Shown here in pieces: positions 39,149 through 45,312 of a stretch of 53,453 nt of DNA. Location of the stretch: the NCBI GenBank assembly GCA_021810905.1, contig JAJZQH010000015.1:1-53453 (forward strand), in the 5' to 3' direction. The notes under the pieces are model-generated. The model searched no databases. It was not told where the DNA came from and worked only from the letters and a program-made list of their open reading frames with translations. This DNA is from a bacterium. Its GTDB lineage: Bacteria; UBA10199; 2-02-FULL-44-16; JAAZCA01. The stretch's first letter is position 1; every line of letters starts with the position of its first letter. The position numbers and the translations under genes were made by a program.

Positions 39149-39622
39149 CTATCTCAGATTCTCCATCGTCTCTTCGTGATCTACCTCTTCGCCGAGTATG
39201 TGGGTCACGAGTTGATAGACCACGTCTTCTTTGCCGAAGGTCATCTTTGCCAGCCTGCGATAGACCTCGATTGCGCCGGCCTCGGCGGCAATCACGAAAT
39301 CGATGATCCTGGCGTAGTCGTCGGTCTTGCTCGGAGGCATGGGGTACGGAAAGTTCGCGTTCTTCTCTATGTCTGCGAAATTCACCGTCGGCGTTCCGCC
39401 CAGCTTGATGATCATGTCGGCCAGCTCGTCCTGGTGCTCGAGCTCGTCCTTCGCGATCTTCTCAAGATATTCCTGCATGTCTTCGGCGCCTGGCCCGGAT
39501 ACCGCCTGCGCCATATACGTGTATGCGTAATAGGCGAGCCATTCGTCGCAATAGGCCTTATTGAGTTCAGCGACCAGTTCCTTTACGTCCACTCCGCAGC
39601 TCTTCCTGAATTTCTCTCCCAT
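39149..39622 (-). CDS. Ferritin-like di-iron protein
   Basis: This 157-residue four-helix-bundle protein has ferritin-type metal ligands: Glu in AYCDEWLAYYAY, the KDELEHQDELADM segment (ExxH), EAGAIEVYRRL and GEEVDHEETM (ExxH). It resembles bacterioferritin/Dps-like proteins (DPSL type) that oxidise and store iron or detoxify peroxide. The N-terminal half carries Cys9 and Cys25. GGGAGG lies upstream of the ATG at 39622. It is monocistronic. Confidence 0.82.
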   Translation of the reverse strand: MGEKFRKSCGVDVKELVAELNKAYCDEWLAYYAYTYMAQAVSGPGAEDMQEYLEKIAKDELEHQDELADMIIKLGGTPTVNFADIEKNANFPYPMPPSKTDDYARIIDFVIAAEAGAIEVYRRLAKMTFGKEDVVYQLVTHILGEEVDHEETMENLR

Positions 39623-39955: not shown

Positions 39956-40468
39956 TCACTGCATCGTCGCCACCAACTCGGCGGTCAGTCCCTGTATCGG
40001 CACTCCGTTCAGATCCACCGCCGAAAACGCAACCGGGCTTGCGAAATCCGCTGCCGATATGTTGCTGCCAGCGGCTATATCGCATGTGACGGTGGCGAAT
40101 TCGCCGACGCCGAAGCCGCTGGGATTCGCAACCTCTATTTTCAGCTGTTCCGGCGTGGGGCTTGCGCCGATAGCTATGGCATTTGCGCCTACGGCGACTC
40201 CCGATACCGTGACGATACCGCTGTATGTCACCACTGCGGCCTTGCTCGGGGCCGTCTTGACCGTGGCGCCGACGGGCAGGTTGAGCGTAACGTCAACCCC
40301 TCCGATCTGCGTGTTAGCCGGGAGCGTGCCCGCGCTGGAGAGCGTCAGCACGGCCGTGGTCGCGTTGGGGGTCGGCGTCGGCGGCGTGGAAGAGCTGCCT
40401 CCGCAGCCTCCGTAGAGAAAGAGAACAAATGCTGCTGTCAACCATACGAGCGGCGTTATCTTTTTCAT
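39956..40468 (-). CDS. Lipoprotein with a cohesin-like domain
   Basis: This 170-residue lipoprotein has a signal ending FLYGGC (Cys22), a Thr/Pro-rich spacer (GGSSSTPPTPTPNATTAVLT), then a beta-rich domain of about 130 residues. The domain includes VDVTLNLPVGATVKT, VGEFATVTCDIAAGS and ISAADFASPVAFSAVDLNG. This matches the pattern of cohesin-type beta sandwiches, which bind dockerin modules. The preceding gene of the same operon encodes a multicopper oxidase with a dockerin-like C-terminus, so the lipoprotein could hold it at the outer membrane. The cohesin assignment is by pattern only. Confidence 0.6.
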   Translation of the reverse strand: MKKITPLVWLTAAFVLFLYGGCGGSSSTPPTPTPNATTAVLTLSSAGTLPANTQIGGVDVTLNLPVGATVKTAPSKAAVVTYSGIVTVSGVAVGANAIAIGASPTPEQLKIEVANPSGFGVGEFATVTCDIAAGSNISAADFASPVAFSAVDLNGVPIQGLTAELVATMQ

Positions 40469-40541
40469 GACTGACCCCCGAATTTTATCACGCCGGAGAT
40501 CGGTAATGCCTGGTTACCGCTCTCCTGAGTCGTTCCGTTCA

Positions 40542-43500
40542 TTACCAGCTCACCAGCCCCATCACCTTCCTCAGTATCACCTCGACGTCGCCTATGTCTA
40601 TCTTGCCGTCGGGCTGCGGCCTGCCATTCACTAGTGGCGCTACGTCACCATGCGCCAGATCTCCAGGCGTTGCCGGTATACTACCCAAAGCGATCAGCAT
40701 TGCCGTGTTCACATCGTCAAGCGTCCCGCCATATCCCATGTCTCCGTCAGGCACCATGGTCGCGCCGACGTCGAAGTTGGCGGTGAGGTTCATATCAGCG
40801 GTAACGTTGCTCACCGTGAGCGGATTGGAGACGCTGCGGAATCCGCCCGTGCCAGTCCAGTCGACGAAGTGATAGAAGCTCGCGGGCACTGCCTCAACCG
40901 CGCTTGCAGAAGCCCCGTAGTTGACGTTCTGGCTCGCCGTACCGCTGAGCGTGCCATTGGCGCCGGCCACAAAGTCGACCGTGTAGGCGTTGATCGCGAA
41001 GTTCGCGGTGACGATGTGTCCATTCCCATCGCCCGTGACGGTCAGCGGATTCACCGTCGAGGTCACGAACCCGTTAGTCCCGGTCCAGTTGACGAGGTGA
41101 TATCCCTGATTCGGCACGGCCGTGATCGGCGTCCCTGCCACACCCAGGGCAAGTGCCTGGGCGAGAGTGCCGGTCAGCGTGCCGTTCGCGCCGGCCTGGA
41201 AGGTAACGCCTGGCTGCACGCTGTAGTTGATCGAGCCGGCGACATCCTGCGCCACGGACGCATCCGTCCGCACCTGGACATAAATGACGTAGTTGCCGAC
41301 TGCCGTCGCTGCCGGCATGGTCCAGGTCCGGCCGCCGCCGTAGTTCTGCACGATGCTCAGGTGCGCGAGGTCAGGACCCATCGAGAACTTGTAATCATAC
41401 CCGGACGAGCCTTGTCCGCTGGCCGTGACTACTACGGCGCTCCCCGCGATGTGCGGGCTGGACTGGTCCGTGGTGATCACCACCGAGGAAGCAGGCGCCA
41501 GGCGGATGTAATAGTTGAGGCTCACGGTTGCATCGGGGGCGATCAGCGCCGGATCGGTCCGCACATCCACCTGGATCACATGCGCTCCGGTGGCGGTCGA
41601 GGCCGGCATGGTCCACGTGTTCAGCAGACTCCAGTCCTGCACCGGCGTCAGACCGCCATCAAGCCAGAATCTGTATTCGCAGCCGATGGTGCAGAGGACA
41701 GAAGGAACCGGCGGCAGCGGCAGCGGATCCACGTAGGCCTGCGCCGTGAAGGTCACCGCAGTCCCCTGGGCATGCGGCGTCGCAACGCTCGGCGTGATCG
41801 AGACGAAGGTCGCGGGCGCCCAGCTCCCGGTATTCCCCGGCGCCGGAGTCGGAAGCGTCGTGCCGGGCGAATCGCCGCGCGCGTTGAAGGCGATGACCTG
41901 ATAGCTGTAGAGCGTGTTCGGCGAGACAAGCAAGTCGACGTAGCTGGGGTGCAGGAACGCCTGCAGCGCAGGACCGACTGTCGGATCTACGAGAGGATCG
42001 AGCGCTGGATTGTAGACGTCAGCCAGCGGCCTGAACGGCGTCACCACCGCGATCGGGTTCACGCTTCCGTTCCGATAGACCTTGTATCCGATGATGTCAT
42101 CTGAAACCGGAGGCGCATCCCACTGGATCGTCACCTGTGAATTGCTGGGGCCGCCGAGCGTAACGGTCACGTTCGCCGGATCTGCTGCCGGCGGCAGGAG
42201 TGGCACGTCGATGGCCAGGGCGCGCATCATGTCGTTCTCTTCGTGGCCCAGCAGATGGCAGTGCCACACGTATTCCCATCCGAAATCAAAGAGCGGGTTC
42301 GTGTTCGTGCCTCCCACCGTCGTGTTCGGTGGACCGTTGTAGGTCTTTCCCACCTCGCCGGTCGGCGGCATCGCGACGTTCATCGGTCGGATGCTCTCTG
42401 GCAGCGGCGGCCACGCGGCTGGGAGCGTCGGCACGGCCGGCTTCACCGCTACGATCACCTGCTCCAGGGGGTCGGCCCTGATGGTCTCCCTCCAGCCGAT
42501 CTCGTCGGGGTAGGGCGGCTTCACGACGCCAGCCCAGTCGACGCGGTTCACCACCTGGACGTTCATGAGATGGAAGTGCACGAAGTGCGTATCGACTCCG
42601 TTATGAATGATCATCCAGACCTGCGGCTGTCCTTCGGGGATGACCTCGGTTGGCAGGTCCGTGTATCCCATCTGGTGCGTGGTCTGGGTGTTGAAGTTGG
42701 TAAACTGCAGTTCGGTGCCGAGCAGCGCGTTCATGCGGCCGTAATCCAGTTCGAAGAGCTCCTGGATCGTCTTGAAGTGAACGGGCAGTTGATTGTTCGT
42801 AGCGTCCTTGATCGCCGTGTCGAAGTTGTTGATGTACACGCCGTCCGGGATAATGTGCGCGGGCTCCGTCGTTGCGAAGACGTTCGGCAGGCCCGTGGCC
42901 GGGTTCTGCAGCTTTGCGAGCGTAGTCGCGAAGTTGTCCGGGTCGGCCGGTCCCGTGAGCGGGACCACCTTGAACTGCATGATGGTCCGTGTGTTGGGGC
43001 CGTATCCCGGCAGCGTCGGAGGCGCACCGCCCGTCGCCGAGTTATCCGGATCGCCGGTATAGTAGTCGTATCGCAGGTCCGATGCAGGCGCCGGCGCCGG
43101 CGAGTCGTTGTAAAGGATCAGCGTCGTGCCCACTGGCAGCGTCGAGAAGTCCACTATGATGTCCGTGCGCTGCGCCGGTCCCATCAGTAGATTCGTATTC
43201 TTGATGTTCGTGACGGTGATGCTCCGCGGATCGGTATCAAACGTCACGTAGAGCGGTTTGATCGCCGGGTCATTGGTCACATAAGGCGCAGGCATGAAGC
43301 CGCCTTCAGTTCCTATCAGGATAAAAGGCGGACCGGCCGTGGTATCGTCCGGAATGCCGCCCGCGCGGCCGTCCGGCGCTGGCACCATCTTCACTTCCGT
43401 ATCTACCGACGCGACGGCCGCGGCGCCGGCGCCACCGCCACCGGAGATTTCAACCACTGGAGCCGACGTGTAGCCGACGCCCGGATTGGAGACGACGATG

Positions 43501-43808
43501 TCCGTGACCGCGCCACCCACGACCACAGCCGTGGCCGTTGCCGGCGTCGTAGCACCGCCGCCCGTGAACGTGACGGTCGGCGCGGAGGTGTAGCCGGAAC
43601 CGCCGTTGACGACCATGACGCTCATGGGCTCAGCCTTGTAGAGCTGCAGGTTGAGCGTGCGATCGTTGCAGGCGTTGAGGATCCTGAAGCGATACCTCCT
43701 CGGCTCGACATTCAGAGAAGGATATGCCGTACCGTTGACCACCGGCGTGTCCATGAACGCCTCTGGCACAATCGACGGATCCGGGAGCTGGGTGTTGTTC
43801 ACCGGCAC
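40542..43808 (-). CDS. Multicopper oxidase, C-terminal frame with FnIII, repeat and dockerin-like modules
   Basis: This frame continues the oxidase started at 45312 after a one-base shift at about 43817. Its first 540 residues hold the rest of the cupredoxin region. An inserted pair of [16 protein letters not shown]-type repeats (about 68-125) precedes the copper motifs HFVHFHL (about 408-414) and [12 protein letters not shown] (about 516-527, type 1 and trinuclear ligands). Then follow an FnIII-like domain (about 540-660), two Ig-like modules, two InlB-type repeats ([24 protein letters not shown]) and a dockerin-like end. The latter has two Ca-loop-like segments, [20 protein letters not shown] and [24 protein letters not shown] at the left end is not a real start. 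Confidence 0.8.
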
Positions 43809-45312
43809 GATGGGCCAAGGGACCGTAATCCCATCGGCCTAACGGATTCATGGCGCCCGTTCCAATCGACGGCGGCATCTGGTTCGGTTCGTAAATGTGG
43901 GGGAACCAGAGGTCCGCAACCAGCGGTCCCGCCAGCGGATCGTCATTGTATTTTCCCCAGCCTCGTGGGTTCCCCTGGCTGTCGAAATTCCACAGGGCAT
44001 CCTGCGTATCCACGTTCTTCGGGACGAAAGTCTTGTCCTGAATGATCAGGGGGACGTTGTGCGCGAGATCGGGTAGAGCACCTGAGGCCTCGAGGGCTGC
44101 TTCAGCGTTGTCCCGGATCAGGTAGCCCGCTGCCTCGCCTGCGTAGACGTTGAGCCGCGTGATGCCGTAGGCGTGGTCATGGTAGAACATGAGCCGCGCG
44201 CTCTGCTGGTTCGGATAGAAGAAGGTCTCGTAGCCCACGTTGTTGACGGCGTCCGTCGCCTGCTGGACCTGCGCTGCGAGATTAAGTTTGAACGCCGTGA
44301 CGACGTTGGTGACACCAAGCGGCGGTATGGCGCTCAACGTTGGAAACGGGCTCACGGCGACCAGGCTGTTCAGGCTGTCGAGTGCATAGAGCGCATCCGT
44401 ATAGCTCATGGAATTGCCTGGCACCATCGCGAGCGCGGCGGTGTTCGCGGTCTGCGCCGAGAGGACGATATCGTTGGCCGCCGTCACTTCTGCAGGCGTC
44501 ACCAGCGGCGTCGCATTGACCGTCGTCTGGAAATTGGTCGTGGCAGTGACAAGTGCTGCCGCGATCCCCTGAACGGTCGTATCCACGCCCGCGACGGCTG
44601 GCATCATGTCAGGGAGGTTTCGCGTGCTCATGCCGACGGGATACGGAGTCAGATCGCCGGCAGGGGTAATCCACTGGTGCGGGGTCCCGTCGCTGAGCCA
44701 CGGCGGGAATCCGCCGTGGAGATGCACGGTCGCGCGGTTCTGGTTGTAGATCGTCATGCCGTCAGGCGCCATGCCAGCGCCCATGATCGTTTCGTCCACG
44801 GGAATAGGGAGATTGCCAGCAGCTCCCTGGCCCAGTTCGTTGAAGAACTTGATGCGCACGGGCGTGTTTTCCGTCGCAACGATCAGAGGTCCCAGGTATT
44901 GCGAGCTGTGGTCCACGCCGTTCTTCTGATAATATCCCCTGATCTGCGTGGGGCCGGGGAGGTCCGAGTGCATCTGCGGGGTGTAGTCCCGGAGTCCGAT
45001 CTCATAATAGTCGGAGCCTGGGAATGGATTCGTTGCGGGCGGCTCCGCCTGCGCCACCGGAATGTACTGGCAGAGGTTATTTTCGTGGCACGATCCAGTG
45101 CCGCAGGGATTGCTCATGACACACCCGGGAAATCCCAGGCCCGGAAGACCATCGACAAATTTCCTCATGGCAGTTCCAGATAGCCCGCCCGCTGGGCTGT
45201 TGGCGTAATATGTGCCGCCGCCGGGTCCAGCCAGGGCCGGCGCAACTCCCCACACCACGGCTGCCAGCGTGAATACCAGGCTAATCACGATACAATAATA
45301 TCGCCTGAACAT
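43630..45312 (-). CDS. Multicopper oxidase, N-terminal frame (CotA-like), broken by a frameshift
   Basis: This frame starts at ATG 45312 with GGAGGGGG upstream and a signal peptide (residues 1-28, ending APALA). It encodes the first half of a CotA/phenoxazinone-synthase-like multicopper oxidase with copper motifs [15 protein letters not shown] (about 195-209) and FYHDHAYG (about 376-383). An Ala/Thr-rich, probably helical insertion of about 130 residues (227-357) separates them and is not usual for the family. After GRWDYGP the frame goes out of register: one base too many in a CCCTTGGCC run at about 43817 shifts it, and the correct continuation ([13 protein letters not shown]) lies in the other frame. 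The last 65 residues of this frame are therefore artefactual. Confidence 0.8.

Follow-up and report, generated by a model that had tools for sequence, protein, structure and literature searches.

Large multicopper oxidases that are secreted or associated with the outer membrane and carry a fibronectin type III (Fn3) domain, namely OmpB (GSU1394) of Geobacter sulfurreducens and MofA of Leptothrix discophora, have been linked to the reduction of Fe(III) oxides or the oxidation of Mn (PMC5566968). In the passages of another report that deal with such genes, Geobacter fibronectin-III genes with dockerin, cupredoxin, and laccase domains are described as highly expressed in iron-reducing soil, and the dockerin domains in Geobacter fibronectin and sialidase genes are taken as a link to cellulose (PMC6199725). 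Cohesin-fold domains combined with dockerin-type repeats on extracellular proteins are also known from non-cellulosomal pairs, in Archaeoglobus fulgidus (2xdh), Clostridium perfringens (2jh2/2vo8), and ANME and syntrophic SRB (PMC9012536, PMC10553843).

The locus analyzed here lies in a 53,453-nucleotide stretch of bacterial DNA (hereafter, the window) and combines elements of these systems (Table 1). It encodes a multicopper oxidase with an Fn3-like domain, as in OmpB and MofA (OmpB being compared by description), but the dockerin-like tail of this oxidase and the cohesin-type lipoprotein encoded next to it are not among the features described for OmpB/MofA (PMC5566968). The Geobacter fibronectin-dockerin-laccase genes, noted from annotation, encode the same kind of protein, and no cohesin partner is named for them in the passages concerned (PMC6199725). 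Compared with the known non-cellulosomal pairs, the cohesin here resides on a lipoprotein whose gene often comes immediately after that of the tailed protein, the second Ca loop of the tail carries an insert and the first loop is often degenerate, and most of the cohesins are missed by Pfam. Type I cellulosomal complexes (1ohz and others) share with this system the fold of the cohesin and, to judge from the tail alignment, the duplicated loop-helix arrangement of dockerins, whereas here there is no scaffoldin and no cellulase context, and a single cohesin is carried by a lipoprotein anchor. OmpB/MofA-type oxidases are the closest functional precedent, by analogy with which a role of the window oxidase in metal redox reactions is putative, as is the alternative of phenol substrates raised in the initial annotation.

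Table 1 Features of the oxidase-lipoprotein locus in the window
Feature	Position	Strand	Remarks
Oxidase region	45312 down to 40542	(-)	then 73 bases to the lipoprotein gene
Oxidase N-terminal part, first frame	43815-45312	(-)	ORF 43630-45312; signal peptide, conserved N-terminal start motif
Copper motif HLHG	44713-44724	(-)	oxidase first frame
Copper motif HDH	44173-44181	(-)	oxidase first frame
Frame break, net loss of 5 nt	43815-43819	(-)	homolog comparison
Oxidase C-terminal part, second frame	40542-43814	(-)	ORF 40542-43808
Copper motif HFVHFH	42570-42587	(-)	oxidase second frame
Fourth copper motif	42228-42263	(-)	oxidase second frame
Fn3-like domain, below Pfam cut-off	41862-42179	(-)	PF00041 2.3e-4, 21.8 bits, cut-off 25
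Two divergent InlB B-repeats	40779-41207	(-)	PF18998 1.6e-15 and PF09479
Dockerin-like C-terminal tail, 75 aa	40545-40769	(-)	family alignment A5; 77% identity in G042
Degenerate first Ca-loop region of tail	40713-40748	(-)	alignment A5 and loop survey
Second Ca-loop of tail with conserved insert	40587-40646	(-)	alignment A5 and loop survey
Oxidase stop codon TAA	40542-40544	(-)	
Lipoprotein gene, cohesin type, 170 aa	39956-40468	(-)	next gene after the oxidase
Lipobox YGGC	40403-40414	(-)	lipoprotein, cysteine C22
Cohesin-fold domain of lipoprotein	39959-40360	(-)	

The oxidase is CotA-like, CotA being its best match in the PDB (3e-20), and the part encoded in the second frame matches PF07731 (1.4e-7). 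All four copper-binding motifs that the initial annotation had attributed to a CotA-like oxidase are indeed present, but they are spread over two frames and the oxidase is not a single ORF. Its N-terminal part shares 50% identity with the copy in G042, another genome of the same phylum, and with Geobacterales oxidases. At 43815-43819 the window reads CCCTTGGCCC, whereas G042 and four Geobacterales homologs read CCCTGGTTCTGGCC or a close variant; the break site itself is CCC/TTGGCCC, compared with CC[CA]TGGTT[CT]TGGCC (GPWFWP) in all homologs compared. The net loss of 5 nt inside this conserved GPWFWP segment leaves the gene as two ORFs, the first frame continuing past the break in the wrong register as far as 43630. 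We also considered programmed +1 frameshifting at CCC-T. Skipping of the T would then yield GPWPIV, but neither a stop nor a stimulatory context is apparent at this site and the homologs are continuous, so that a deletion or an assembly error is preferred; the loss represents either genuine decay or an error of assembly. Because the assembly interrupts the reading frame, the function of the oxidase in the window's genome, where this is the sole such gene, is uncertain. The C-terminal repeats had been read as FnIII, Ig-like, and InlB-type; the InlB repeats were recovered by profile search, but the Fn3 match stays below the cut-off and no Ig-like family was matched in the window oxidase by Pfam. 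A repeat insert is located at 43400-43625, inside the oxidase domain, and is also present in G042. A ferritin-like gene (39149-39622; PF00210, 1.1e-23) adjoins the oxidase-lipoprotein pair on the same strand.

The last 70-75 residues of the oxidase comprise a dockerin-type module, for which a two-repeat layout is visible in the family alignment. The window tail has no match to the dockerin profile PF00404 (Dockerin_1), and Pfam and NCBIfam scans of this tail were uninformative, but the same profile matches 14 of 25 family tails at E<=0.1 (best, 1.5e-6), its cut-off being exceeded by two of the five family tails shown. Conversely, the profile of the tail retrieves PDB dockerins weakly (0.012-0.8). 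As for the two dockerin-like Ca loops noticed initially, the second one retains the ligand pattern D..DG.ID..D, interrupted by a conserved insert of some 8 residues, but the first one is degenerate, with positions 5, 6, and 8 lost. Across the family, the second loop takes the form DVAPLxNGxPxPDGxIDxxD, that is, a dockerin loop with the insert, and 71 of the 72 matched tails retain the Asp at its start. A canonical first loop (GDLDGNGKVDIVDAL) occurs in many relatives, altogether in 26 of the 75 tails of the loop survey. Given that the first loops of intact-oxidase tails in Geobacterales are degenerate as well, tails with a single loop may be characteristic of the oxidase branch. A search for tails in plasmids found none.

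The product of the next gene starts with a signal peptide ending in a lipobox (MKK...FLYGG-C22; read by eye and with a regular expression), and a lipobox-like cysteine is found in 69 of 72 related partner lipoproteins; a location in the outer membrane is predicted. The cohesin profile PF00963 does not match the window lipoprotein at E up to 10, and it matches only 1 of 12 members of the lipoprotein family (0.0022); Pfam and NCBIfam scans were likewise uninformative. From an alignment of just two rows, AlphaFold2 gave a poor model of the lipoprotein (pLDDT 55). With 19 aligned family sequences, the G042 homolog (L002), which is about 52-53% identical to the window lipoprotein, was modeled as a confident beta-sandwich, with pLDDT near 90 for most of the domain. 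The best Foldseek match of this model in the PDB is the non-cellulosomal cohesin 2xdh of Archaeoglobus fulgidus (3e-4), and when the Foldseek PDB matches were aligned with VIA, all of the best 50 rows were cohesins or cohesin-like (model residues 113-250), with Z up to 10.0 over 108-128 residues and, for the best, rmsd of 2.5-2.8 over 108-117 residues. As modeled for this homolog, the lipoprotein domain is a nine-stranded jelly-roll of the cohesin fold, for which dockerin binding is a prediction. The cohesin likeness of the small lipoprotein, a point on which the initial annotation had made its proposal depend, accordingly holds at the level of the homolog's structure although not at that of the profile. 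AlphaFold2 modeling of a fused tail-lipoprotein read-through of the homolog, with an unpaired alignment, reproduced the cohesin part well but gave no docking, the final helix of the tail having packed into one unit with the signal peptide.

The tail and the lipoprotein are rare in the window's phylum, where the pair was detected in 2 of 46 genomes, the window's own and G042; this sparse distribution suggests horizontal acquisition, possibly from Geobacterales. In G042, the gene order is the same, with 21 bases between the two genes; the frame break of the window is absent there, but an independent in-frame TAA interrupts the oxidase further down (L007, about 3610). Intact oxidase-tail-lipoprotein operons were identified in four Geobacterales genomes (G391, G405, G433, G437), so that we do not regard this architecture as a chance feature peculiar to the window. 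The intact oxidases, 1588-1625 aa in length, share the N-terminal motif, the copper motifs, and the tail, and are followed by a lipoprotein of 186-192 aa that is cohesin-like but of a divergent type, still matching the family profile in hhalign (89%). Homologs of the window oxidase are common in this order. A gene for an FKBP_N-domain protein is located just upstream of the tailed oxidase in two Geobacterales loci (L106:7681-8013, Pfam 1.4e-10; L107:7389-7757), and none was seen upstream of the window oxidase. This arrangement is reminiscent of mofA, which is adjoined by the PPIase gene mofB.

We surveyed 58 genomes (including G353) of the order that contains Pelobacter propionicus, placed by means of its plasmid pPRO1, which matches G431 at 100% with identical coordinates over the 2417 bases tested; we take this order to be GTDB Geobacterales (NCBI Desulfuromonadales). 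Tails were detected in 43 of the 58 genomes (profile A1) and the cohesin-type lipoprotein domain in 40 (profile A4), with both present in 39. In the 30 loci fetched from the A1 search, the tail is at the C-terminus. Among the 150 listed tails, 71 are followed on the same strand by a lipoprotein domain that starts within 1.6 kb downstream (chance expectation, 0.12), a count that is biased towards adjacent matches by the sensitivity of A4, 9 of the 12 seeds of which come from loci adjoining tails; with the seed loci left out, about 60 adjacent cases would remain. No other tail-lipoprotein arrangement was found among these 150, and about half of them have no detected partner adjoining. Over 66 non-redundant pairs, seven of them from G417, the distances between tails correlate with those between cohesins (Mantel r 0.45), a value reached by none of 5000 within-genome shuffles of partners, nor by any when the size class of the lipoprotein was kept. 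Such co-variation, to which linked inheritance can contribute, supports cognate pairing and falls short of proving contact.

Several other gene arrangements were noted in the course of this survey. Tailed proteins of a different class are followed, at six loci (L027, L030, L042, L046, L048, L050) from several genomes of a single genus, by a conserved lipoprotein of more than 470 aa in which no cohesin domain is recognised. Genes for multiheme c-type cytochrome-like proteins (CXXCH) are located downstream of tailed proteins or cohesin lipoproteins at L032, L034, L036, L039, L049, and L051. Pfam-type cohesins of Geobacterales also occur in proteins of about 430-500 aa. Exported proteins of 425-438 aa with an N-terminal Pfam cohesin match are encoded at L106:707-1981 and L178:125-1438; the L106 protein ends in a single DLNGDGRYDGIDDYIY loop and, in G437, follows the oxidase-lipoprotein pair. 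Secretins that combine TPR, Secretin, and a C-terminal Pfam cohesin are encoded at L178:8318-10759 and L179:2231-4783, in a cluster that also includes two pseudopilin-like genes and an FtsE/FtsX-like pair.

We propose, with a probability of roughly 0.7, that a non-cellulosomal pair of the cohesin-dockerin type anchors the CotA/OmpB-like oxidase to the outer membrane, the binding itself being predicted. The secreted oxidase would end in the dockerin-like module, which would bind directly to the cohesin-fold domain of the lipoprotein from the next gene, probably in a Ca2+-dependent manner through at least one loop; the lipoprotein would hold the oxidase on the outer membrane, displayed outside, where it could perform an extracellular redox role as suggested for OmpB/MofA. 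Anchoring of this kind was the central idea of the initial annotation. The cohesin fold, the recurrent operons, the co-variation, and the four intact oxidase pairs argue for it, whereas the degenerate first loop and the broken gene of the window detract from it, as do the lack of PF00404 and PF00963 matches in the window proteins and the divergent type of the lipoprotein in the four intact operons.

A different role of the tail deserves consideration, in particular, in Geobacterales, where the presence of secretin-fused Pfam cohesins makes it a real alternative: the tail could serve as the signal that sorts the protein to a type II-like secretion machine and dock on the secretin-borne cohesin rather than on the lipoprotein. 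The secretin in the pseudopilin cluster bears its C-terminal cohesin with E values of 1.8e-13 and 8.6e-13, 51 of the 58 genomes yielded PF00963 matches, most of them to proteins of about 800-925 aa, and the secretion of OmpB has been attributed to an atypical type II system (Mehta 2006, as relayed in PMC5566968 and in the relevant passages of PMC6199725). We nevertheless consider this quite improbable, given that the window's genome yields no PF00963 match at E 0.1, that several genomes (e.g., G385, G389, G393) encode Pfam cohesins without tails, and that it is the lipoprotein that so often neighbors the tail and co-varies with it. Somewhat less improbable, and still unlikely, is that the tail and the lipoprotein are surface modules linked by co-transcription alone, with no binding between them, the tail being a Ca-stabilized cap or binding something else; the degeneration of the first loop and the many tails without an adjoining partner would fit, but the juxtaposition of a cohesin fold with dockerin-type modules, in fixed order and with within-genome co-variation, speaks against it.

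The fate of the window's own copy is a separate matter, compatible with anchoring in the relatives. It is a serious, if tentative, possibility that what is left here of a transferred operon is in decay and yields no working oxidase: the deletion affects a conserved segment of the genome's only copy, and the phylum's only other copy has the in-frame TAA. Against decay, 1088 codons are open after the break, the lipoprotein gene is intact, and a lone indel could have arisen in assembly. The cohesin-fold lipoprotein is the likely anchor of the dockerin-tailed oxidase, and the copy in the window's genome may be dead.

Beyond the oxidases, we believe, on balance, that Geobacterales and some of their relatives possess a large, largely unannotated set of cognate tails and cohesin lipoproteins that provides modular surface display for oxidases and other giant extracellular proteins, with up to about ten tails per genome, an insert-bearing Ca loop, and two-gene cassettes that may be mutually specific. 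For such dockerin domains, the data suggest surface anchoring over a link to cellulose. A plug-and-socket pair beside an oxidase would make the retention of OmpB-like redox proteins at the surface directly testable, would give the non-cellulosomal cohesins and dockerins, the role of which has been puzzling, a concrete job, and could provide new protein-protein docking parts for surface display. The recurrence of the two-gene arrangement, dozens of times in relatives of Geobacter, suggests a general mechanism, distinct from the cellulosome, by which secreted proteins for redox reactions and adhesion are held at the cell surface.
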